Positions 5,278 through 32,378 of a DNA stretch of 64,000 bases are shown piece after piece; positions within the stretch are counted from its first letter, which is position 1, and every line of letters begins with the position of its first letter. The DNA is taken from contig JANQQJ010000033.1 in the NCBI GenBank assembly GCA_028284945.1, positions 1 through 64,000 of the forward strand. The letters are read 5' to 3'. Both the position numbers and the translations under genes were made by a program. The DNA comes from Alphaproteobacteria bacterium (GTDB taxonomy: Bacteria > Pseudomonadota > Alphaproteobacteria > SMXS01). A model generated the notes under the pieces. It was given only the letters and a program-made list of their open reading frames with translations. It had not been told where the DNA came from and did not search any database.

Positions 5278-5874
5278 CTACTTGATCATGCGGAAATGTT
5301 CGCTTGCTAGCCAACTGCGCATAAAGGTCGCATCGCAGATGTGATAGGCCCAAATTCTTGAGTCGACCGTTCCATACGTCACAGCGTGAATCTCACCTTC
5401 ATAATCAGAGAGCCACTCTTCGAGCTCCGGTTCTATGTCCCGCCAATCAGTTTTTCCATGCTCTATGGGTACCAACTCGCCCGGATTAAGCAATCCATCT
5501 AAATCTACTACGCCGTCAAACAGTTCTGCAAAGTAGAGTGCCAGCTCGCCGAGCACTCTATGGTCCTCCTCGTCGTTACACATTGCTGCCAAACCAATTT
5601 CATGTTTTGGCAAGAAGCCAACGTGATGCTCAATCTCCGTCAATTCTTCTTCGCCATACTCGGAGTCTTCGTTGCCGGTTTCCGTATGGGAAAAAAGGAA
5701 CGGTCTGGCATGCTGGTCCGTGGCGACTGTGTCTCCGATAGGAACGGTGGAATTGATCCAGATTTTGTTCTCGTCTTGAACCGAGCTAATAAGATCAAGC
5801 GCGTGTTGGATCTGCTTCAGCTGACGTCCAGTCGGTGCAGCTTGAAGCAAGACCATCGCAGTTGGCCCAGCCAT
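5278..5874 (-). CDS. Uncharacterised acidic protein, lower-GC gene coupled to the VWA gene
   Basis: The 198-residue protein is acidic and soluble with no signal peptide. It opens with MAGPTAMVLLQ, which I associate loosely with DUF6368-type proteins; this is unverified. Its ATG lies 4 bases after the VWA gene stop, so translation is probably coupled. Its base composition is visibly more AT-rich than its neighbours, a sign of recent acquisition. Small acidic orphan proteins of this kind are often immunity proteins, but no toxin partner is seen. The 3' end converges on the bestrophin gene. Confidence 0.65.
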   Translation of the reverse strand: MAGPTAMVLLQAAPTGRQLKQIQHALDLISSVQDENKIWINSTVPIGDTVATDQHARPFLFSHTETGNEDSEYGEEELTEIEHHVGFLPKHEIGLAAMCNDEEDHRVLGELALYFAELFDGVVDLDGLLNPGELVPIEHGKTDWRDIEPELEEWLSDYEGEIHAVTYGTVDSRIWAYHICDATFMRSWLASEHFRMIK

Positions 5875-5878
5875 TGCG

Positions 5879-7054
5879 CTACCGGCTCAGTTCCTTCATC
5901 GCGCGTTCCAGTCCTTCGAGCGTCATGGGGAACATGCGGTGGGACATGATCTGCTTGAGTATCTCAATCGACGGCGTTGAATCCCAATAGCCTTCAGGCA
6001 CCGGATTCAGCCAGACCGCCTTGGGATAGACGCTGAGCATGCGCTGCATCCAGCTTTCGCCCGATTCCTCGTTCCAGTGCTCGACTGATCCGCCCGGATG
6101 GACGATTTCATAGGGGCTCATGGTCGCGTCGCCGACAAAGATGACTTTGTAGTCGTGTGGATAGGTGTGCATCACCTGATAGGTACCCAGCTTGTCGGCC
6201 CGGCGGCGCACATTGTCCTGCCACACTTCTTCGTACAGGCAGTTGTGGAAATAGAAATATTCCAGGTTCTTGAACTCGGTGCGCGCGGCTGAAAACAATT
6301 CCTCGCAGACCTTGATATGCGGGTCCATCGAGCCGCCGACATCGAAGAACAGCAGCACTTTGACGCTGTTATGCCGTTCAGGGACCATTTTCAGGTCCAG
6401 ATAACCGGCGTTTTTCGCCGTCGAGCGGATGGTATCCGGCAGGTCGAGTTCCTCGGCATTGCCGTCGCGGGCCCAGCGGCGCAGGCGGCGCAGCGCCACT
6501 TTCATGTTGCGGGTGCCGATCTCCAGCCCGTCATCCAGATTTTTGAATTCGCGCTTGTCCCAGACTTTGACGGCCTTGTTGTTCTTGTTCTTGTCCTGGC
6601 CGATGCGCACACCGGCGGGGTTATAGCCGTGGGCGCCATAGGGCGACTTGCCGTTGGTGCCGATCCACTTGTTGCCGCCCTCATGGCGCTCGTCCTGTTC
6701 TTCCATGCGCTTCTTGAGGGTTTCCATGAGCTCGTCCCAGTCCATGGCTTCCAGCGCGGCTTTTTCTTCCTCGGTGAAGAACTTTTCCGTCAGCTGTTTC
6801 AGCCAATCTTCGGGAATTTCATGGACGTCGTCTTCGGCCGTGAACTCGATGCCCTCAAAGCACTTGCCGAACACCCGGTCGAATTTGTCGAGGTTCTTCT
6901 CATCCTTCACCAGCGCAGAGCGCGACAGATAATAGAACTCATTGACGTTGTAGCGGGCGACACCCTTGTCGAGCGCTTCCAGCAGGGTCAGATACTCACG
7001 CAAGGTGACAGGCACCTTGGCGTTGCGCAGTTCATAGAAGAATTCGGTGAACAT
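5879..7054 (-). CDS. VWA domain protein, CoxE-like
   Basis: The 391-residue protein has an N-terminal helical region that opens like CoxE proteins (FFYELRNAKVPVTLREYLTLLEAL), a charged linker, and a C-terminal von Willebrand factor A domain. The metal-site motif is DVGGSMD (Asp238, Ser242), with later partners GDATMSP. CoxE/VWA proteins act with MoxR-type AAA+ ATPases as chaperones in metal-cofactor maturation or complex assembly. Here the MoxR gene is immediately upstream, 41 bases away, on the same strand. No carbon monoxide dehydrogenase genes are in view, so the client is unknown. Confidence 0.88.
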   Translation of the reverse strand: MFTEFFYELRNAKVPVTLREYLTLLEALDKGVARYNVNEFYYLSRSALVKDEKNLDKFDRVFGKCFEGIEFTAEDDVHEIPEDWLKQLTEKFFTEEEKAALEAMDWDELMETLKKRMEEQDERHEGGNKWIGTNGKSPYGAHGYNPAGVRIGQDKNKNNKAVKVWDKREFKNLDDGLEIGTRNMKVALRRLRRWARDGNAEELDLPDTIRSTAKNAGYLDLKMVPERHNSVKVLLFFDVGGSMDPHIKVCEELFSAARTEFKNLEYFYFHNCLYEEVWQDNVRRRADKLGTYQVMHTYPHDYKVIFVGDATMSPYEIVHPGGSVEHWNEESGESWMQRMLSVYPKAVWLNPVPEGYWDSTPSIEILKQIMSHRMFPMTLEGLERAMKELSR

Positions 7055-7095
7055 GGTCTTTTCCTTATACCCGCTCGCCGGGAATGATGGAAATC

Positions 7096-7941
7096 CTATC
7101 GGTTCTCCCGGCGGGTCAGGAAGGCCAGACGCTCGAACAAATGCACGTCCTGTTCGTTCTTCAGCAGCGCACCATGCAATGGCGGGATCAGCTTATTGGG
7201 ATCGCGTTCGCGCAGGATCTCTTCTGGCATGTCTTCGGCCATGAGCAGCTTCAGCCAATCAAGCAGTTCTGACGTCGACGGCTTTTTCTTCAGGCCGGGC
7301 ACATCGCGCACCTCATAGAAGATTTTCAGTGCTTCCGAGACCAGGGTCTTTTGAATTTCCGGGAAGTGGACACCGATGATGTCGCGCATCGTGTCCGGGT
7401 CCGGGAACTGGATGTAGTGAAAGAAGCAGCGGCGCAGAAACGCGTCCGGCAGTTCTTTTTCATTGTTGGACGTGATCATCACGATCGGGCGGTTCTTTGC
7501 GACGATCTGTTCCTGCGTCTCGTAGACAAAGAACTCCATGCGGTCGAGTTCGAGCAGCAGATCGTTCGGAAACTCAATGTCGGCCTTGTCGATCTCATCG
7601 ATCAGCAGGACCGGGGACTCGTCGCCTTCGAAAGCCTCCCACAGCTTGCCCTTGACGATGTAGTTGGAAATGTCGTGGACCTTTTCGTCGCCGAGCTGCG
7701 AATCCCGCAGGCGCGACACCGCGTCATATTCGTAAAGGCCCTGCTGCGCCTTGGTGCTGGATTTGATATGCCACTGGATCAACGGCTTGTTCAGCGCGCG
7801 CGCAACCTCTTCGGCCAGCACGGTCTTGCCAGTGCCCGGTTCGCCTTTGATCAAAAGCGGACGGCCAAGGGTGATGGAGGCGTTGACCGCAACCATCAGG
7901 TCTTCGGTTGCGACGTAGGTATCTGTACCTTCGAATTTCAT
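7096..7941 (-). CDS. MoxR-family AAA+ ATPase
   Basis: I chose the ATG at 7941 (281 residues), because the family begins close to the KFEGTDTYVATEDL stretch; the open frame extends further upstream without conservation. Walker A is GEPGTGKT (33-40) and Walker B is VLLIDEIDKAD; the sensor-1 region is VMITSNNEKELPDAFLRRC. These hexameric ATPases remodel client proteins together with a VWA partner, and that partner follows directly downstream. The pair forms an operon with the lower-GC gene at 5278-5874. It is divergent from the ArfA-like gene. Confidence 0.9.
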   Translation of the reverse strand: MKFEGTDTYVATEDLMVAVNASITLGRPLLIKGEPGTGKTVLAEEVARALNKPLIQWHIKSSTKAQQGLYEYDAVSRLRDSQLGDEKVHDISNYIVKGKLWEAFEGDESPVLLIDEIDKADIEFPNDLLLELDRMEFFVYETQEQIVAKNRPIVMITSNNEKELPDAFLRRCFFHYIQFPDPDTMRDIIGVHFPEIQKTLVSEALKIFYEVRDVPGLKKKPSTSELLDWLKLLMAEDMPEEILRERDPNKLIPPLHGALLKNEQDVHLFERLAFLTRRENR

Positions 7942-8120
7942 GGGGCGTTCCCGGTTATCTTTGATTGCGGTGCAACCTAGAGCATGACGTGAGCAGATTG
8001 AAGCCCTTCTATATCTTGTTGTTCCATGGACATTGGCTATTCCGTCCCTATCTGTGCTAGAGCACCGCGTGTTCGCCCAATGGTGGGTGAGCGCCATGAA
8101 GGATGAATGGAACAACGGAT

Positions 8121-8264
8121 ATGAAACGACGCAACGCGGCCGCGAAGGCACTCAGCGACCCGCGCTATCGAAAGCGGGTCGTCAAATCCAAGAAAACATA
8201 TTCCAGAAAAGGGCGCCTGAAGTGGCGCCCTAAACATGTCGGGCTGACGCTTCTGGACTTCTGA
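8121..8264 (+). CDS. ArfA-like small basic protein (putative ribosome rescue factor)
   Basis: This 47-residue basic protein reads MKRRNAAAKAL, then SDPRYRKRVVKSKKTYSRKGR, then a short tail ending GLTLLDF. The middle resembles the E. coli ArfA core (DPLFRQRVEKNKK...YMRKGKH), which lets release factor 2 free ribosomes stalled on stop-less mRNA. As in E. coli, a strong hairpin (8211-8230) sits in the frame right after the RKG region, and the residues after it are dispensable-looking and hydrophobic. The E. coli gene relies on such a hairpin to make its own mRNA stop-less. The ribosome site is weak. An alternative is an unrelated short family with the same basic motif. Confidence 0.62.
   Translation: MKRRNAAAKALSDPRYRKRVVKSKKTYSRKGRLKWRPKHVGLTLLDF
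8211..8230 (+). promoter_or_regulatory. Hairpin inside the ArfA-like reading frame
   Basis: GGGCGCC at 8211-8217 and GGCGCCC at 8224-8230 form a perfect 7-bp GC stem with loop TGAAGT. It begins at codon 31 of 47, immediately after the conserved basic region. It is preceded by AAAA but is not followed by a run of T, so it looks more like an RNase cleavage or mRNA-truncating structure than a classical terminator. Its role is inferred from the arrangement in E. coli arfA. Confidence 0.55.
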
Positions 8265-8315
8265 CCGCATTCCAAAACCGGTCGCCGCGGGCTAGGCTGC
8301 AGGTTGGGGAGGACC

Positions 8316-9392
8316 GTGGAAGAACTCGATCTCATTTTCCGTGGCGCGAGCATGGGGCTGCTGGTGCTGTTTGCGTTAAAGCTGACCACGGCGCAGCAGA
8401 ACCGTTGGCTGGCTCTATTCGGAGCTGCTTTCGTCGTCAGCGTTCTTGGCTACCTCTGGGCGCCATTGGCATACAAAACACTCGGCGAAGTGGGGTGGGG
8501 AACGCCGTTTTTCTTTGCCGGACATTTTGTCGCTTGGTGCATCTGGATGTTTGCGCTCACACTGTTTGACGATGGCTTTAGGCCACGCTGGTATCACTGG
8601 GCTGTGGCGGGCGCGTTCTTGTTCTTCTTTGCTGCTCGTTTTGTGCCGGAGGATGTGCCGGGTGTCTTGTTCGGCGACAGCATTCAGCGGGACCGCTTTG
8701 TCCTTGACCATATGCTGTATCTGGTCGTCATTGTTGTGACCATGGTTCGGGTTGGGGCTGGCTTCTCGGCTGATATGGTCGAACCCCGGCGTCGAAGCCG
8801 GGTCTATGTCATCGCGGGCTCGGCGCTCTATGCCTTGCTTGTGGTGACGGTAGAACTGTCGATGGGCGCGGTGCCGGGTGGCCCGATGCTGGATCTGTTG
8901 AACGCACTGTCGATCTTTATTCTGACCCTGGCGATCATCGGCATGATCCTGACGCTACGGGACGACGGCCTGGTCGGTGCCGGGCCCAAAAACGGCGGGG
9001 AGAGCACATCGGAATCAGCCGATCAAGCCGACATGCTCAATATCGTAAAACTGAAGGCATTTTTTGAGGAGGATAAGGGGCACCGGACGGAAGGACTCAC
9101 GATTTCGGCACTCGCTGAATCGATTGGGCTTCCTGAATACCGGGCGCGAAAACTGATCAATCAGTCGCTCGGATTCCGTAATTTCAACGCGCTGCTGAAC
9201 GAATATCGTATTCAGGACGCGCGTTCGGCGCTGTCCGACCCGGAAATGGCCCGAACGCCAATTTTGACCATTGCTCTGGACTGCGGCTACGCGTCACTCG
9301 GCCCTTTCAATCGTGCTTTCAAAGAGTTAACGGATATGACGCCGACGGAATACCGCCGGAAAAAGCTGGGTGCCGGACTCGCCAAATCCTAA
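8316..9392 (+). CDS. AraC-family regulator with membrane-spanning sensor domain
   Basis: I chose GTG at 8316, placed after GGGGAGGA, giving 358 residues. The first about 210 residues contain six to seven hydrophobic segments, so the sensor part sits in the membrane. A linker (about 225-245) follows, then a C-terminal AraC double helix-turn-helix domain (LTISALAESIGLPEYRARKLIN and ILTIALDCGYASLGPFNRAFKELTDMTPTEYRR). Membrane-bound AraC proteins of this type probably sense a lipophilic or envelope signal. The gene sits directly upstream of a sterol desaturase-type gene on the same strand, its likely target. Confidence 0.85.
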   Translation: MEELDLIFRGASMGLLVLFALKLTTAQQNRWLALFGAAFVVSVLGYLWAPLAYKTLGEVGWGTPFFFAGHFVAWCIWMFALTLFDDGFRPRWYHWAVAGAFLFFFAARFVPEDVPGVLFGDSIQRDRFVLDHMLYLVVIVVTMVRVGAGFSADMVEPRRRSRVYVIAGSALYALLVVTVELSMGAVPGGPMLDLLNALSIFILTLAIIGMILTLRDDGLVGAGPKNGGESTSESADQADMLNIVKLKAFFEEDKGHRTEGLTISALAESIGLPEYRARKLINQSLGFRNFNALLNEYRIQDARSALSDPEMARTPILTIALDCGYASLGPFNRAFKELTDMTPTEYRRKKLGAGLAKS

Positions 9393-10542: not shown

Positions 10543-10584
10543 GGGGCGCCTGCTTTAAGCCGAAACAGGTGCCCCTTCTTTTTT
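10543..10584 (+). terminator. Rho-independent terminator after the desaturase gene
   Basis: GGGGCGCCTG (10543-10552) pairs with CAGGTGCCCC (10566-10575) with one wobble, followed by TTCTTTTTT (10576-10584). It fits a plus-strand terminator. It overlaps the last codons of the convergent DoxX gene, so the same DNA is both terminator and coding sequence. Confidence 0.75.
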
Positions 10585-11034
10585 CGCATCAGACTCGGAC
10601 TTCTTTTCCAGACCCAGAACATGGTCTAGCGAGAAACTGCCGGGACCCCGGCCCACCGTATAGAGCAGCAACGCAGCCCAAAGCAGATGCACAGCCCAGG
10701 CATTGGGATAAACAAAGATTTGAATGACCAACGTCATGCCCAGCAAGCCCAGCGCGCCGAAGCGGGCGAACAGGCCCAATACCAGCAGGACCGGGAAGAT
10801 ATGTTCGCCGAGCGATGACAGGGTCGCTGCTGTCTGTGGCCCGAGCAGTGGCACCTGATACTCGTACTCGAACAGAAAAACCGTGCTGTCCTTCACGTTC
10901 CAGATATCCCAGCCATCGACCTTGGTGCGCGCCGAATTCCAGAACGGGACTGCAGCGGCAATTCGAATGAGCAGGGCGATCAGCCATTCAGGCACATTGG
11001 CCAGCAGGCCGTTGAGGGTTCGGATCATATTCAT
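10555..11034 (-). CDS. bufD: DoxX family membrane protein of the bufferin operon
   Basis: Start ATG at 11034 follows GGAG, giving 159 residues. Four hydrophobic segments and the central ALLIRIAAAVPFWNSARTKVDGWD are typical of DoxX proteins; the C-terminus is a charged tail (LEKKSESDAKKEG). A DoxX-type gene commonly closes bufferin operons, where it is named bufD in Caulobacter. Its role there, perhaps redox or electron transfer in the membrane, is not settled. It starts 17 bases after the bufC stop in the same operon. Confidence 0.82.
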   Translation of the reverse strand: MNMIRTLNGLLANVPEWLIALLIRIAAAVPFWNSARTKVDGWDIWNVKDSTVFLFEYEYQVPLLGPQTAATLSSLGEHIFPVLLVLGLFARFGALGLLGMTLVIQIFVYPNAWAVHLLWAALLLYTVGRGPGSFSLDHVLGLEKKSESDAKKEGAPVSA

Positions 11035-11050
11035 GGGGAGCTCCAGAGCG

Positions 11051-11833
11051 TTATGGGGTGTCAGCAAGGGCAAAGGATGTGAAAACCCCGCCCGTGATGA
11101 AGTCGACAAGGGCCGACTGAAGGTCGAAGGCAGGATCGATTTTGACCGCCGCTTCGAACGCAGCGGTGATGGTGCGGTTGGAGTTAAGGGCGGCAAGAAA
11201 TTCGTAGCGGGCTTGTGTGAGTATTCTGACGTCGACTTTGTCTGCTGGCCGGATCACCAAAAGAAATTCAGCGCGCTGAGTGGCCTCTATTTTTGTGCCT
11301 TCGGCAGCGCCGGGTTGGTTGGCATACCAGATTTGTCCGGCTGGATAATCGGAACGCAGCAAGGTCGCCGATGGATGAAGGGTAAACGTTAGTGAGGGGA
11401 GGGCTTCCGGCGCGACGGCTGCGATCCCGTCTGCTGAGACCACGGTGGCATCTGCAGCCCGATAGGCTTTGAGCCAGGCACGTTCAATTGATGCGACATC
11501 GGCCAGATAAGGAAGCGAGCGGGCGGGCGCGAAGTTTTGCAGAAACGCAGGAAAGCCATCGCCATACTCGCCCAACCGGCCGCTGGCGGGTGGTTGCGTT
11601 AGGACAAATTCGCGCGCCATGGCTTTGAAGAACGCGTCGCCGACCAGCCTGCTGACGACCGGAAAAAGCTCGCCCAAAGCGCTGATCATGGATGACAGAA
11701 TGTTGTTTCGGTAAATGCGCAGGCGAAGGTCGGGGGCGATGTCACCTGGGGCGACCGCTCCTGCCAACCCGTCCTCGTCATGCCGCAGCATGGCGCTGGC
11801 GAAATTCTGCTGGAGCTTATGCAGCGCCGGCAT
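11051..11833 (-). CDS. bufC: BufC-type partner protein (DUF2063, putative DNA-binding annotation)
   Basis: The 260-residue soluble protein starts LHKLQQNFASAML and has the family pattern RLRIYRNNILSSMISALGELFPVVSRLVGDAFF (about 37-69) and ARSLPYLADVASIERAWLKAYRA (about 104-126). Databases often call this family a putative DNA-binding domain protein, but members next to DUF692 enzymes act as peptide-engaging partners in modification of precursor peptides. It overlaps the bufB end by 17 bases, which implies tight co-translation and supports a BufB-BufC complex. Confidence 0.87.
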   Translation of the reverse strand: MPALHKLQQNFASAMLRHDEDGLAGAVAPGDIAPDLRLRIYRNNILSSMISALGELFPVVSRLVGDAFFKAMAREFVLTQPPASGRLGEYGDGFPAFLQNFAPARSLPYLADVASIERAWLKAYRAADATVVSADGIAAVAPEALPSLTFTLHPSATLLRSDYPAGQIWYANQPGAAEGTKIEATQRAEFLLVIRPADKVDVRILTQARYEFLAALNSNRTITAAFEAAVKIDPAFDLQSALVDFITGGVFTSFALADTP

Positions 11834-12704
11834 AATCCGCCTCCATGGGGCTGCCCGTCAGGCCGGCGGCCCGCACGGCTTCTCCGTAAAGTGTGGAAAA
11901 GTCAGGGACATTGGTGTCCCATTCAATAAGCGTAACTGGGACGCCAAAGGCATCGGCATAGCGCTGGTAGAGTGACCAGACGGCCTCGCTGACCATGTCG
12001 CCGTGATCATCGATGCGGATTTCGGTGTCGCCGACTTGTTCAACGGCGTGTCCGGCGAGATGAATTTCCTGCACCGCGTGATGCGGGATGGCTTCCAGAT
12101 AGGCCCATGTATCGAACCCATGATTCGATGCACAGACAAACGCATTATTGATGTCGAGTAACAGCCCGCAGCCGGTTCGCCGGACCAGTTCGGCCAGGAA
12201 TTCCGGCTCGGTCAGCGCATCGTCGTTGTATTGCAGGTACGTCGACGGGTTTTCGACCAGAATTTGACGGCCCAGCGCTGTCTGCAGCCGGTCCACATTA
12301 GCGGCAATCGCTGTCAGGCTTTCGTCTGTATAGGGCAGGGGGAGCAGATCGTTGAGGAACGCGCCGTCAACCGCGCTCCAGGAAATATGGTCGGACACCA
12401 GAAATGGCTGATAGCGCTCGGTGAGCCGTTTCATCCATTGAAGTTGGTTTTCTTCAATCGGCTGAGCAGAGCCAAGCGAGCAGCCGACGCTGTGAAGCGA
12501 AAGGGCATAGTCCTGCCGAACCCGCTCCAGATAGCGATGTGGCGGACCGCCATCGAACATGTAGTTTTCCGGGTGGACTTCGAACCAGCCGAGTGGCGGG
12601 TTTGCCTCCAGCACATTCTGGTAATGCTGAGGCTTGAGCCCGACCCCGACGGATTTCGGGGGCGGGCTCGTTGTCTCATGAGCTGGTTGGGATGCCGAAC
12701 GCAA
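11817..12704 (-). CDS. bufB: Multinuclear non-heme iron oxidase, BufB (DUF692/MNIO)
   Basis: I chose TTG at 12704 because GGAGG lies exactly 5 bases upstream; a TTG at 12716 is the alternative. The roughly 295-residue TIM-barrel enzyme shows the DUF692 metal ligands: HPENYM, LSLHSVGCSLGS, VSDHISWS, LVENPSTY, LLDINNAF, EIHLAGH and DDHGD. MNIO enzymes oxidise cysteines in ribosomal peptides; the bufferin enzymes are reported to form 5-thiooxazole groups. The substrate gene, bufA1, lies immediately upstream. Confidence 0.9.
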   Translation of the reverse strand: MRSASQPAHETTSPPPKSVGVGLKPQHYQNVLEANPPLGWFEVHPENYMFDGGPPHRYLERVRQDYALSLHSVGCSLGSAQPIEENQLQWMKRLTERYQPFLVSDHISWSAVDGAFLNDLLPLPYTDESLTAIAANVDRLQTALGRQILVENPSTYLQYNDDALTEPEFLAELVRRTGCGLLLDINNAFVCASNHGFDTWAYLEAIPHHAVQEIHLAGHAVEQVGDTEIRIDDHGDMVSEAVWSLYQRYADAFGVPVTLIEWDTNVPDFSTLYGEAVRAAGLTGSPMEADYAGAA

Positions 12705-12729
12705 CTTGGCCTCCAATCCTCAGACCGGC

Positions 12730-13020
12730 TTAGGACGCGGGGTTGTCGCGGTCGATCGGCTCAAGCGAACCGACACGGTCGCCCGGCAGCTCGATATTCG
12801 CGCAGGTGCCCGACGGGACCAGCTTCCAGGCATTACCCTGATAATCGATGGTCGACGTGCCGGCACAGGTCGTGCCCGGGCCAGCCGCGCAATCATTTTC
12901 ACCGGCGAGCGAGACGCCATAGCATTTTTCCATGTCTGCGGCAGCGGCGGGAATCGATGCGGCAGCGGCGGACAGGGCTGTGGTCATGGCAGCGGCAACC
13001 AGTACGGCGGAATTTTTCAT
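12730..13020 (-). CDS. bufA1: Bufferin precursor BufA1 (DUF2282)
   Basis: The 96-residue precursor has a Sec signal peptide (about 1-28, Ala-rich, cleavage near AAA-D) and a small mature domain with four cysteines: Cys33 (EKCYG), Cys44 (ENDC), Cys52 (GTTC) and Cys73 (SGTC). This is the BufA1 pattern. After oxidation of cysteines by BufB and export, bufferins bind copper in the periplasm and protect against it. A good ribosome site, AAGGAA, precedes the ATG. It is the first gene of the operon, as expected for the most highly expressed product. Confidence 0.92.
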
Positions 13021-13392
13021 GATGTGTTCCTTACTCTTTGACTTACTGAACTGTGGTTAACGGGGCGAAGAAGCCCGGCGGCCGTCCTGGCCACGACGAA
13101 GAGATACCAGCTTCCCCGCTCCGCACAATTCACCCGGGATCACTAACGAGTGAGGCGCCCGTCATCAGCCATTCGCGCTGTTGATTTGAGCGCCGGATTC
13201 GGTGGGCTTCATGTCAGTGGCTCAAGGTGTCGGGGTTGGATTGGCAATCCAGCGGATTATCCCAGCCCGGTTTTCTGCGAGAATAATCGTTTAATTTAAC
13301 CGTCCGCGAAAAAACATTTGCACGTGCATGTTTCTCTGATTATGTTGCGGCCCAATCCGTTATCTTATTGGCATAGAACGAGGTAATCGCCC
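13021..13392. other. Intergenic region between bufA1 and dksA
   Basis: This 372-base divergent region should hold the promoters of the bufferin operon (leftward) and dksA (rightward). I see no convincing sigma-70 hexamer pair. A GTTAACC-like string near 13056 recalls the first half of ECF-type promoters, but I find no matching second element. A short palindrome TGCACGTGCA lies at about 13319-13328. No reading frame in it looks like a gene. Confidence 0.4.
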
Positions 13393-13860
13393 GTGGACAA
13401 AATTGTCGACTCCACCGACGAAGCGCTCAAACACCATATTGCCAGCGACGTTGACCTCCCCGAAGGCTACAAGCCTTCCGCGGATGAGGAATTCATGAAC
13501 CCGATGCAGCTGGCCTACTTCAGACACAAACTTCAAAGCTGGCGTGACGAGATTATGAGAGAATCTCGTGAGACCCTGGACCACCTTCAAGAAGGCGGTA
13601 TTCAGGAGCCGGACCTGGCCGACCGCGCCTCGACCGAGACCGATTGGTCGCTGGAGCTGCGGACGCGGGACCGTCAGCGCAAGCTGGTTGCGAAGATCGA
13701 TTCGGCGCTGCGCCGCGTTGAAACCGGTGACTATGGGTATTGCGAAGTGACCGGCGAGCCGATCAGCCTGAAACGGTTGGAAGCGCGCCCGGTGGCCACC
13801 ATGACGCTCGAAGCGCAGGAAGCGCATGAGCGCAACGAAAGAATTCATCGAGACGACTAA
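13393..13860 (+). CDS. dksA: RNA polymerase-binding transcription factor DksA
   Basis: The 155-residue protein starts at GTG with AGG upstream. It has the coiled-coil tip motif DLADRA (Asp74, Asp77, Ala79), which reaches into the polymerase secondary channel, and a C-terminal zinc-finger region. In that region only the first of the four usual cysteines is kept (Cys117 in [10 protein letters not shown]); the other three positions read Thr, Thr and Ala. This is common in alphaproteobacterial DksA and implies folding without zinc. It works with ppGpp to control rRNA and stress promoters. A terminator follows, so it is probably monocistronic. Confidence 0.92.
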
Positions 13861-13889
13861 GACGCTTGGGGAGAGGCGTTGTTTGAGAG

Positions 13890-13919
13890 GGCCGGTCTTC
13901 GGATCGGCCTTTTCTTTTT
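13890..13919 (+). terminator. Rho-independent terminator after dksA
   Basis: GGCCGGTC (13890-13897), a TTCG tetraloop and GATCGGCC (13902-13909) form an 8-bp stem with one wobble pair, followed by TTTTCTTTTT. Confidence 0.88.
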
Positions 13920-27589: not shown

Positions 27590-30500
27590 TTATTCGGCGG
27601 GCGCCGTGCGCCGCCGTCTGAAGCGTACTCTCATCCGTCTGATACGTTGTTTTAGGACGTATGGCGCCGCGATCAGGCACGGCGTCACCAATAGTGTCAG
27701 GACGGTCGCAAAGCTCAGACCGAAGACGACCGCGAGCGCAAGGTCGACCCAGAATTCCCCGGTTGGTGCGCCCAATGTGACTTCCCGGCCGACGAAATCG
27801 ATGCTCAGCATGGTGAACATCGGCATCAGGCCGATCACGGTCGTCACGGTCGTCAGCAGGACCGGTCGCAAACGCTGAGCGCCTGTCCGAATGATGGCGT
27901 CCAGCGGGTCCATGCCCGATTTCATCAGCCGCGAGAACGTATCGATCAGCACGATGTTGTTGTTCACAACAATGCCGGCGAGCGAGATGATGCCCACCCC
28001 GGTCATCACGATCACAAAGGGCCGTTCCATAACAATCAACCCGACAACCACCCCGATGGTGGAGAGTACGACCGCCGAAAGGATGAGGAAGGCGTGGTAG
28101 AAGTTATTGAACTGGGTGACCAGAATGATCGCCATCAAGAACAGGGCGACGATAAACGCGTTCATCAGGAACGCTTGCGCCTTGTTCTGTTCTTCAGCTT
28201 GCCCCCTAAAAGTGATGTCCACCCGCGGATCGAAATTCTGGGTTTCGATCCAGGCTGAAATCTCCTTTACTTTGGTGTCGGTCATGTATCCTGGGGCGAC
28301 GTTCGCGCTTAGCTTCAGTATGCGCGCGCCGTCAATCCGCTCAATAGTATTGACCTGTTGCCTTGCTGAACGGGTTACGAAGTTCGATATCGGAATCGGT
28401 CCTTCCAGCGTGTTGACTCGCAGCTCATCCAGCATGGCCATGCTGCGCTCGTCCTCCGGGAAACGGACCCGGATGTCGACTTCTTCGTCGGCGTCGTCAG
28501 GCCGGTATTCGCCAACCTTGATGCCGTTTGTGACCAGCTGAACCACACCACCAACGGTGGCCACGTCCGCCCCGAAACGTTCCGCTTGCGCACGGTCAAC
28601 GCTCAACTTCCATTCAATGCCGGGCAGGGGGCGCGTGTCGTCAATATCCAGCAGACCCTCAACTTCTGTTTCCATGTAATTCCGGATTTTGACGAGGGTT
28701 GGCTCGATCAACTGAGGTGAGGATGCCGAGATTTCCAGCTGAACGTCTTTGCCCTGATCCGGGCCGAAGTCGTTCTGAGACGGCGTGACATAAATGCCCG
28801 CAATCGGCTCCGTCTTCTCGCGCAGTTCCTCAATGATGACGTCAGAGCGGGGACGTGTACGCCAGTCACGCAGCTGCATCGAGATCATGCCGATCCGGTC
28901 GGCAGCCGGTTCGTTGCCAAAGCCGCCGCCACCGCCGCTGTTGCCGCCGACAACGGTATAGGTGGTGGAAATACCGTCAACCTCGGCGATTGCGGCTTCG
29001 ACCTCTTTGACCAGCTCATCTTTTTCCGCGATGGCCAGATTGCCCCGGGCGCGTACTTCGAGCTGAATGATGCTGGAGTCGCCCTCCGGGAAGAATTGAA
29101 CGCCATCGCCATGGGTTGCGTAGTATCCCCACACGGTAACAAGCATCATGAACGCGGCGGCCAGTACCCAGAACGGCCGCAGGATCAATCTGCTGAGCAG
29201 CCGGGCATAGGTGCCTGTCAGGCCGGGAAGGCTGCGCGTATCGCCGAATTCGACGGCGTTCAACCCAGCTAGTGTTTCGGCCTTGCGGGTTTCCGTACGT
29301 CCCATAAGGGCGCCCAGCGTTGGCAGGAAGATCAGCGCTGCCAGAAGTGAGCCTGTCAGCGTCGCGACCAGCGTCAGCGGCAGGTACTGCATGAACTCGC
29401 CCATAATGTCAGGCCAGGCCAGCAGTGGTAAAAAGGCAGCCAGCGTTGTGGCGACCGATGCCGTGATCGGCCAGGCCATGCGTTTGGCGGCGAGCGCATA
29501 GGCTTCGCGGCGGGGCAGTCCCTCTGCCAGTTTGCGGTCAGCATATTCTGTGACCACGATCGCTCCATCGACCAGCAGGCCGACGGCCAGAACGAGGGCA
29601 AAGAGGACGACCTGGTTAAGCGTAAGGCCTAGTGCGGCAAGGATCAAAATACCAAACAGGAATGATGTGGGGATCGCCATGCCGACCAGAATTGCCGGGC
29701 GCGCCCCCATCACGAAGACGATGACAATAACCACCAGCAGGATGGCTGTGATCACGCTGTTCTGAAGCTGCGACACCTGATCGACGACAGCATCCGCCTG
29801 ATTCTGCGAATAGAAGAAAGACAGACCGGTGGGCCAGCGTGCCTCGTGCTTGGCCACCACCTGTTTCACGGCGGCCACCGTATCGATGACATTGGCGCCC
29901 GACCGCTTTTTGATTTCAACGCCAACGGCAGGTCGGCCATTGAAGCGGGATATGCTGGCCGCGTCTTTGAACGTGCGGCGGATTTCCGCCACATCAGAGA
30001 GTTTGACAACGGCGTCGCCGTCTACCTTGACCGGGAGCTCGAGCACATCCAGCGCCGATTCAAACAGCCCGGGAACCTTGACAGCAAAACGCCCCTGACC
30101 GGTATCGAGCGTGCCTGCGGCGACCACCTGGTTGTTACGTTGAACGACGCGCAGCAATTCGTCCTGGGTGATGTTGTAGCTTTCCAGCTTGGCGGTATCG
30201 ATATTGACCTCAAGCACCTCTTCACGAATGCCGGTCAGGCTCGCCTCAAGCACGCTTGGGATGGCTTCTAGGTCGTCTTGAAGGTTCTGCGCCAGGTGAA
30301 GCAGGGTCCGCTCTGGCAGCGCGCCGAACAGGGTCACGACCACCGCGGGAAAATCGCTGGTCGCGATTTCCTGAACAACGGGTTCGTCCGCGTCGTCGGG
30401 CAGTTCGGCCTTGGCAATATCGACTTTGTCGCGAACTTCGGCCAGCGCGCGTTGAACATCAACGTCGCTCATGAACTCAATGGTGATTGAGGCACCGCCG

Positions 30501-30760
30501 ACCTGTGCGGTTGAGTTCAGTTTCTTGATGCCCGGTATCGCCCGGACTTCCTTCTCGATCGGCTTAATGATCAGCCGTTCGGAATCCTCGGGCGAAATGC
30601 CCTCATGATGCACATTAACGAAGATCAGCGGCAGCGTGATGTCTGGATCGGACTCACGCGGAATCGTCAGATAGGCTGACAGTCCGGCGATCAGGACCAG
30701 TGCAAGGCTCGCCAGAACGGTCCGGGACCGTGCCAGTGCCGCATCGATAAGTGCGTTCAA
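27590..30760 (-). CDS. RND efflux pump permease (HAE1-type)
   Basis: The 1056-residue protein has the 12-helix RND layout with two large periplasmic domains (about 35-330 and 560-870). TM4 reads GLLVDGAIVVTEY and TM10 reads VVNNNIVLID; compared with AcrB, the second Asp of the proton-relay pair is Gly and the TM10 Lys is Asn, as in a known subgroup of HAE pumps. It exports hydrophobic or amphipathic compounds by proton exchange. It overlaps the adaptor gene by 4 bases. No outer-membrane factor is in the operon, so a shared TolC is likely. Confidence 0.94.
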   Translation of the reverse strand: MNALIDAALARSRTVLASLALVLIAGLSAYLTIPRESDPDITLPLIFVNVHHEGISPEDSERLIIKPIEKEVRAIPGIKKLNSTAQVGGASITIEFMSDVDVQRALAEVRDKVDIAKAELPDDADEPVVQEIATSDFPAVVVTLFGALPERTLLHLAQNLQDDLEAIPSVLEASLTGIREEVLEVNIDTAKLESYNITQDELLRVVQRNNQVVAAGTLDTGQGRFAVKVPGLFESALDVLELPVKVDGDAVVKLSDVAEIRRTFKDAASISRFNGRPAVGVEIKKRSGANVIDTVAAVKQVVAKHEARWPTGLSFFYSQNQADAVVDQVSQLQNSVITAILLVVIVIVFVMGARPAILVGMAIPTSFLFGILILAALGLTLNQVVLFALVLAVGLLVDGAIVVTEYADRKLAEGLPRREAYALAAKRMAWPITASVATTLAAFLPLLAWPDIMGEFMQYLPLTLVATLTGSLLAALIFLPTLGALMGRTETRKAETLAGLNAVEFGDTRSLPGLTGTYARLLSRLILRPFWVLAAAFMMLVTVWGYYATHGDGVQFFPEGDSSIIQLEVRARGNLAIAEKDELVKEVEAAIAEVDGISTTYTVVGGNSGGGGGFGNEPAADRIGMISMQLRDWRTRPRSDVIIEELREKTEPIAGIYVTPSQNDFGPDQGKDVQLEISASSPQLIEPTLVKIRNYMETEVEGLLDIDDTRPLPGIEWKLSVDRAQAERFGADVATVGGVVQLVTNGIKVGEYRPDDADEEVDIRVRFPEDERSMAMLDELRVNTLEGPIPISNFVTRSARQQVNTIERIDGARILKLSANVAPGYMTDTKVKEISAWIETQNFDPRVDITFRGQAEEQNKAQAFLMNAFIVALFLMAIILVTQFNNFYHAFLILSAVVLSTIGVVVGLIVMERPFVIVMTGVGIISLAGIVVNNNIVLIDTFSRLMKSGMDPLDAIIRTGAQRLRPVLLTTVTTVIGLMPMFTMLSIDFVGREVTLGAPTGEFWVDLALAVVFGLSFATVLTLLVTPCLIAAPYVLKQRIRRMRVRFRRRRTAPAE

Positions 30761-31839
30761 GCGGCGCCTCCGGCGGTCACCGGCTCGACGTCCACCGCCT
30801 GGCCGGCGCGGACATATTCGTGGCCGACCGTAATCACCATTTCCTGATCATCAAGGCCGTTGACCCAAACGCCTTCGGGGCCATCGCCGATAATCGAAAC
30901 CGGCTTGAACTGAACGACATTGTTGTCGTTGACGGTGCGCACGCCGACGGTGCCATTGTCGTCGAGCACCAAATATGCAGGAGACAACAGATGCGCTGAG
31001 GTCTCGCGCACGGCGACCCGGGTGATAGCCGTTACGCCATCGCGCAATGACAGGTCTTCATTTGGGACAACGAGCTCGACGCGGAAAGTCCTGGTGGTCT
31101 CGTTAGCGACCGCGGAAATGAAGCGTACCTTACCTTCCAGCTGCTGGCCGGTTGTCAGTTGAACAAGACCAACGTCGCCGACGCGGACGGATTGGACATC
31201 CTGTTCTGAAATGTCGCCGACGACGAGATAGGGGTTTTGCTCGACCAGGGTGGCGCAAATATCGCCTTCTTGAAGATAGGCGCCAATTTCGACGGGCCTG
31301 CTGTTGATCACACCGGCGAAGGGGGCCCGGATCTTGGTGTTTTCCATCTCCACCTTGATCTGTGCGACCTGCGCTTTGGCCGCATCGAGCTGGGCGATGG
31401 CGGCTGCTGTTTGGGTTTCAGAGCGGTGACCTTTTTCCATGAGCCGCTTCGCAGCATTGGCCTCAAGCTCCCGCTGACGCGCCAGCGCTTCGGCCTCAGC
31501 TAGCCGCGCCGTCCGGTCATCGGCCGACAGGCGGCAAACGACGTCGCCGGCCTTGACCCGCTGGCCCTTCTCGACCGGCAGGGATTCAATCTGGCCCTTC
31601 AGCTCGCTGCGCAAATCAACCTTGCGGATGGCTTCAGTACGCCCCCTGATCACCACATCGCTGGTGTAGGACTGCGCGGTCACGGCAGACGCACGAACAG
31701 AGGTCAGCGCCGGTTCGGACGTCAAGGCGAGCTTGTCCTCCTCCGTGGGGACCTTGCTTTCCAGTAAGCCCGACAACAACCAAAGCGACATCAAGCCGAC
31801 GATGGTGAACGCAGTAATGTGAGATCTTTTCAGGGTCAT
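30757..31839 (-). CDS. RND efflux periplasmic adaptor subunit
   Basis: The 360-residue membrane fusion protein has an N-terminal signal anchor (about 8-27), a split lipoyl domain (LKGQIESLPVEKGQRVKAGDVVCRL, and RAPFAGVINSRPVEIGAYLQEGDICA) around a coiled-coil hairpin (about 105-160), then beta-barrel and proximal domains. It bridges the RND permease to an outer-membrane channel. It overlaps both neighbours (padR and the permease) by 4 bases, so the three are translated together. Confidence 0.93.
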   Translation of the reverse strand: MTLKRSHITAFTIVGLMSLWLLSGLLESKVPTEEDKLALTSEPALTSVRASAVTAQSYTSDVVIRGRTEAIRKVDLRSELKGQIESLPVEKGQRVKAGDVVCRLSADDRTARLAEAEALARQRELEANAAKRLMEKGHRSETQTAAAIAQLDAAKAQVAQIKVEMENTKIRAPFAGVINSRPVEIGAYLQEGDICATLVEQNPYLVVGDISEQDVQSVRVGDVGLVQLTTGQQLEGKVRFISAVANETTRTFRVELVVPNEDLSLRDGVTAITRVAVRETSAHLLSPAYLVLDDNGTVGVRTVNDNNVVQFKPVSIIGDGPEGVWVNGLDDQEMVITVGHEYVRAGQAVDVEPVTAGGAA

Positions 31840-32378
31840 TCTGCAGCCTCGGCCTGTTGGACCACCACGCCGTCTTCAAGAACGTCGCGATTGTCGGCAA
31901 TGAATTCGATGCACAATTGGTTGATCCGGCGGCCCCATTCCATCAGGAACGCTTCACCGGGGGTTTGATCGCCTTCGCTTAGCTCGTCGATTAGCTGAAG
32001 TTCCGATTGGTGTTCACGGATCCGGTCATCCAGATACTTTTGAAGCAGGGCAGGCGGCAGGGAATCGGAAAAGTAGATCATCGCCAGAAAGTCTGACCGG
32101 TAGCGGTCCGGCGTTAACGGTTTCAGCAGTGATTGACTGAAAGCCTGGTCGCCTTCCGGTGTGATGCTATAGACCTTGCGGTCGGGGCGGCCGACCTCCG
32201 TCTCTTCCCGGCACGTAACCAGGCCTTCGTCAGTGAGTTTGGCGAGGGCCGGGTAAATCGAGCCGTAGCTCGCCTCAAAGAACAGGCTGGGCCAGCCTTC
32301 CTTCATGGCTTTTTGAATTTCATAGCCCGTCGCGCTTCCCCGAGAGAGAATGCCTAGGCAAACAGTCCTGACGTCCAT
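31836..32378 (-). CDS. PadR-family transcriptional regulator
   Basis: The 180-residue protein has a PadR winged helix at the N-terminus (LGILSRGSATGYEIQKAMKE, then SYGSIYPALAKLTDEGLVTC and KVYSITPEG) and a long helical C-domain for dimerisation. It is the first gene of the padR-adaptor-permease operon and most likely represses it, being released by a pump substrate. A 21-bp inverted repeat lies 7 bases upstream of its start. Confidence 0.93.
   Translation of the reverse strand: MDVRTVCLGILSRGSATGYEIQKAMKEGWPSLFFEASYGSIYPALAKLTDEGLVTCREETEVGRPDRKVYSITPEGDQAFSQSLLKPLTPDRYRSDFLAMIYFSDSLPPALLQKYLDDRIREHQSELQLIDELSEGDQTPGEAFLMEWGRRINQLCIEFIADNRDVLEDGVVVQQAEAAE

Follow-up and report, generated by a model that had tools for sequence, protein, structure and literature searches.

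A Buf1-type bufferin operon in an alphaproteobacterium without sigma-F/NrsF control and with a CenR-like palindrome upstream

The 64,000-nucleotide stretch of alphaproteobacterial DNA analysed here (the window) contains on its minus strand, at positions 10555-13020, what by its sequence is a complete four-gene Buf1-type bufferin operon of the ordinary kind, whose product is very probably a peptide that is chemically modified, exported and able to bind excess copper. The operon itself is of a known kind, and what is new is its control: the known sigma-F/NrsF switch is missing, and a repeated CenR-like element is found instead. We put at about 0.88 the probability of the main reading, that is, a Buf1 bufferin operon with thiooxazole modification, Sec export, periplasmic copper buffering and sigma-F-independent control, of which we infer the modification chemistry, the export and the copper binding from characterised relatives. 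The features concerned are the following:

12730-13020, minus strand: bufA1, Buf1 (DUF2282) precursor, 96 aa, ATG start
11817-12704, minus strand: bufB, MNIO (DUF692) bufferin maturase, TTG start
11051-11833, minus strand: bufC, DUF2063 and RRE-like partner protein, 260 aa
10555-11034, minus strand: doxX, DoxX-family membrane protein, 159 aa, assigned by PF07681 and by the gene order kept in relatives
13021-13392, no strand: intergenic region between bufA and the divergent dksA (13393-13860, plus strand)
13140-13153, minus strand: TCACTCGTTAGTGA (TCAC-N6-GTGA), candidate operator, approximately 120 nt 5' of the bufA start codon

The original prediction placed bufA1, bufB, bufC and doxX in this order with short gaps or overlaps and read them as a bufferin operon. 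The open reading frames and Pfam searches confirm the order, with a gap of 25 nt between bufA and bufB, an overlap of 17 nt between bufB and bufC, and a gap of 16 nt between bufC and doxX. The reading as a bufferin operon holds as well: the DUF2282 precursor, the BufB-type MNIO, the DUF2063-RRE partner and DoxX are all present, and the Pfam matches all pass the curated cut-offs (DUF2282, PF10048, 2e-25; MbnB_TglH_ChrH, PF05114, 2.5e-99; DUF2063, PF09836, 2.4e-24; DoxX, PF07681, 9.5e-17). Of the 80 BufB relatives with a long enough contig, nearly all keep this gene order: bufA precedes bufB, which is followed by bufC and usually by doxX. The arrangement is not due to chance.

The same prediction attributed to BufA1 a Sec signal and four cysteines at positions 33, 44, 52 and 73; the positions are exact, and our by-eye reading of the sequence bears out the signal, a Sec-like peptide spanning residues 1 to about 28 with a lysine at position 2, a hydrophobic stretch rich in Ala and, ahead of residue 29, an AxA-type end. 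All four cysteines are conserved in 92-93 of the 93 aligned homologues; E31, G35, N42, W65 and G84 are conserved too, and the motifs EKCYG and NDC are, together with W65 and G84, near-invariant in that alignment. When roles are assigned after Fig. 3 of PMC12452194, Cys33 and Cys73 are the predicted disulphide pair, and Cys44 and Cys52 the predicted modification sites. No NCBIfam profile matches BufA1 above its cut-off, the BufA2 model giving a weak, sub-threshold match only, and a sequence search of solved structures with BufA returned nothing. A single homologue in the alignment, the BufA of genome L036 (4726-4962), has Tyr in place of the first cysteine (EKYYG) and is the only one of the 93 without the presumed disulphide cysteine; this substitution may be either a variant or an error.

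BufB scores 369 bits against the NCBIfam equivalog model MNIO_BufB (NF050167), the cut-off of which is 310. Its start is most likely the TTG at 12704, which is directly preceded by an SD-like GGAGG, with an alternative TTG at 12716. BufB is homologous by sequence to the solved MNIOs 3bww, TglH and MbnB, and its MNIO iron-ligand positions are conserved across 96 homologues, the conserved residues being H71, H106, E151, D184, N187, H215, D232, H234 and E261. Two functionally important residues of HvfB, D242 and H244 (PMC13419390), have their counterparts in D232 and H234 of BufB, as we read the 3bww alignment. The length of BufC, 260 aa, is typical for a DUF2063-RRE partner (PME type 1). A sequence search of solved structures with BufC gave no match; its predicted structure (pLDDT 89.7), when compared with the PDB, matches at E < 0.001 only TglI (8hci/8hi7) and NGO1945 (3dee), both MNIO partner proteins. 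BufC and DoxX fall below the NCBIfam cut-offs for HvfC and HvfX, respectively, as expected because they belong to a different subfamily.

MNIO and DUF2282 genes occur exactly once each in the genome, which is 99% complete, and the operon is therefore its sole recognisable bufferin system of this type; neither a second bufferin locus nor a stray MNIO was found. Buf1 operons are common, and the present one joins thousands of Buf1 clusters. DUF2282 is found in 111 of the 289 sampled alphaproteobacterial genomes and NrsF in 59, and NrsF is absent from approximately two thirds of the sampled genomes that carry bufA.

Based on the relatives described in PMC12452194, PMC13097082 and PMC13419390, the system would work as follows. 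The Sec signal peptide of BufA1 would double as a leader, and a complex of BufB, a diiron MNIO, with its RRE partner BufC would oxidise Cys44 and Cys52 to 5-thiooxazoles in the cytoplasm. By established MNIO chemistry, this is a four-electron oxidation that would lower the mass by 4 Da for each cysteine modified. The modified BufA1 would then be exported via Sec, after which the outer pair, Cys33 and Cys73, would form a disulphide, and the mature peptide would bind periplasmic copper and buffer an excess of the metal. DoxX would be an accessory membrane protein with an undefined role. Transcription would depend on a factor reading TCAC-N6-GTGA and not on sigma-F/NrsF, with CenR being the best candidate as judged from motif statistics.

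The closest known counterpart is the Caulobacter vibrioides Buf1 operon CC3254-CC3257 (bufferin 1), which agrees with the present operon in all four genes and in their order: a DUF2282 precursor with a Sec signal and four cysteines, an MNIO, a DUF2063 protein and DoxX. It differs in being under sigma-F/NrsF control with a GTAACC-N16-CGAA promoter, whereas the present genome lacks both NrsF and a promoter of this type and carries TCAC-N6-GTGA. The Buf2 bufferins, with 6 or 12 cysteines, share the MNIO-DUF2063-DoxX cluster and a precursor with a Sec signal, but the present precursor has four cysteines and a DUF2282 domain and stays below the threshold of the BufA2 model. The EGKCG captophorins, i.e. 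oxazolin/HvfABC, fontiphorin and gonophorin, likewise combine an MNIO and DUF2063-RRE pair with 5-thiooxazoles in a secreted peptide; however, EGKCG repeats are absent from our precursor, and the HvfB model, which has a cut-off of 360, gives a score of 212. Methanobactin (MbnABC) is also a copper-binding peptide modified by an MNIO, but the present operon has no MbnC-type partner, its precursor has a Sec signal instead of a classical leader, and its role would be sequestering and not scavenging.

In Caulobacter, sigma-F drives the buf operons from GTAACC-N16-CGAA promoters, and NrsF keeps them in check (PMC3511200). A profile search for NrsF (PF06532) in the window's genome gave no match, and the best match to a sigma-F-like promoter in 13021-13392 has three mismatches, which is the same as in shuffled DNA; sigma-F control of the present operon is rejected on these two counts. 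The original prediction had pointed to this region as the place for a promoter conserved among relatives: a sigma-F promoter is not there, but a palindrome common to many relatives is. The contrast extends to other genomes. With at most one mismatch allowed, the sigma-F motif lies upstream of bufA in 25 of 45 cases in NrsF-bearing genomes vs 1 of 68 in NrsF-less ones (Fisher p ~8e-12, an optimistic value because the sequences are related). The window's own family is divided in this respect: three genomes of genus g3 (G002, G006 and G007) have NrsF and exact sigma-F promoters, and both are lacking in the window's genome (G000) and in G003, the genome of genus g2 that carries bufA. It should be noted that 20 of the 45 bufA upstream regions in NrsF-bearing genomes (e.g., L101, L116, L130 and L136) are without the sigma-F motif, and that several of these regions belong to second bufA copies.

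When the bufA upstream regions of NrsF-less genomes were searched for spaced pairs that are enriched, TCAC-N6-GTGA ranked at the top, with 13 of 55 sequences carrying it and 0.1 expected. The spacing is specific: among 57 NrsF-less alphaproteobacterial regions, N6 occurs in 13, and every other spacing between 0 and 15 in none or one. The window's genome contains 36 such palindromes in 3.56 Mb, vs 16 for a reversed control, and the probability of finding one in the 372-nt gap between bufA and dksA is therefore only about 0.4%. A second genome of the same family (L012) shares the bufA-dksA neighbourhood and also has the palindrome. With a refined matrix, TCAC(A/G)-N4-(C/T)GTGA, set to 3% false positives, sites were detected in 42 of 110 unique regions; in a set of BufB relatives that partly overlaps with these, it detected sites in 16 of 35 alphaproteobacterial regions and in none of 22 gammaproteobacterial ones. 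Because the motif had served as the seed of the matrix, which was also made symmetrical, there is some circularity in these counts, but none in the spacing test or in the test with published CenR sites described below. In our view, the element is probably functional. In the bufA upstream regions of several alphaproteobacteria (L026, L037, L086, L088, L089 and L096), the palindrome is followed, about 20-45 nt downstream, by a second element similar to TNATTTCC-N2-4-TTGA; GTGATTTCC was observed five times with 0.2 expected, and this second element is not evident in the window.

Which factor reads the palindrome is a matter on which the evidence points in two directions. A literature text search for the palindrome led to the srlA promoter of Sinorhizobium meliloti, which carries AGTCAC-N6-GTGACT and requires CenK-CenR (PMC9561847). 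When the 31 published CenR sites of Rhodobacter sphaeroides, obtained by ChIP-seq (PMC9275681), were scored with the matrix derived from bufA, 30 exceeded the 95th percentile of shuffles, and the column correlation between the bufA matrix and these sites is 0.92. Conversely, a matrix built from the published sites detects 14 of 56 NrsF-less bufA regions (1.1 expected), 9 of 39 NrsF-bearing ones (0.8 expected) and 1 of 22 gammaproteobacterial ones (0.4 expected), and it ranks TCACTCGTTAGTGA 24th among the approximately 128,000 positions of the window. The occurrence of the motif in alphaproteobacterial and not in gammaproteobacterial buf operons would be expected if CenKR, which is confined to alphaproteobacteria, reads it. 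These data make CenR a possible reader of the element, which we hold at somewhat less than an even chance, cenR itself not having been located in the genome. A different regulator, such as a metal sensor of the ArsR family, may equally well be proposed: the S. meliloti ArsR-family gene SMc01226 is preceded by the same repeat as srlA (PMC9561847), and members of the OmpR family, including CenR, usually bind direct repeats. The published CenR site is described as the direct repeat TGA-N8-TGA, although the sites of the R. sphaeroides regulon and the srlA repeat, of the form T(C/G)ACR-N4-YGTGA, resemble the bufA palindrome. Moreover, tolQ and msrA, which are CenR targets elsewhere, have no CenR-type site in the window's genome, and because of this the CenR assignment is unproven. 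One of the three rpoH genes has a borderline site, TCGCGAACTTGTGA, at a score reached by 2% of shuffles. Other strict palindromes in the genome lie upstream of two TonB-dependent receptor genes, a redoxin gene and others, and some are intragenic. The R. sphaeroides CenKR paper mentions neither DUF692 or DoxX genes nor copper, and for a literature search joining CenR with bufferin, the matches listed were all unrelated.

Turning to function, the physiological signal of this Buf1 bufferin might be mainly something other than copper, e.g., cadmium, chromate, gold, mercury, or redox or envelope stress. Chromate and cadmium induce the sigma-F-dependent buf operons of Caulobacter (PMC3511200), fusions of MerC with bufferin are known (PMC12452194), the candidate operator is similar to the site of an envelope-stress regulator, and copper genes were not seen in the neighbours scanned. 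Nevertheless, we consider this unlikely: both copper binding and better growth under copper stress are documented for characterised bufferins (PMC12452194), and the association with copper is general among 5-thiooxazole peptides (PMC13097082). That the operon is silent or decaying seems very improbable, given four intact frames, conserved ligand and cysteine residues, SD-like sites and the retention of the sole genomic copy; what would speak for it is that a classical sigma-70 promoter was not found, in a scan that covers alphaproteobacterial promoters poorly.

Returning to the reading of a copper-buffering operon independent of sigma-F, the close match of the palindrome to published CenR sites makes a second, envelope-stress control of bufferins plausible. 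We tentatively suggest that there might be at least two regulatory classes among the Buf1 operons of alphaproteobacteria, the known one controlled by sigma-F/NrsF and another, including the present operon, by CenKR via TCAC-N6-GTGA, though we would not bet on this division at even odds. If true, these bacteria would buffer copper as one component of their general envelope homeostasis. For bufferins in NrsF-less genomes, the conserved palindrome provides a concrete site that can be mutated and a named candidate regulator, and a CenR link would tie copper buffering to a cell-envelope stress system.

An RNA switch in the bufA leader was considered and rejected: Rfam gives no match upstream, and the folding energy equals that of shuffles. 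A weak RsmY-like Rfam match at 13804-13911, far below the gathering score, covers the end of dksA and the dksA-recA gap and is probably due to chance. Membership of the AraC-type gene (8304-9392), the fatty-acid hydroxylase gene and dksA in the cluster is unsupported; dksA lies beside bufA in only one genome of the same family, L012. In the product of 8304-9392, a DNA-binding domain of the AraC type is fused to an N-terminal half that is hydrophobic and probably spans the membrane. Elsewhere in the window, genes for a MoxR-like AAA ATPase (with weak similarity to MadB), a CoxE-type VWA protein and a DUF6368 protein lie consecutively at 5278-8151 on the minus strand, and a PadR-type regulator, an HlyD-type adaptor and an AcrB-type pump make up an RND efflux operon at 27590-32378, also on the minus strand.
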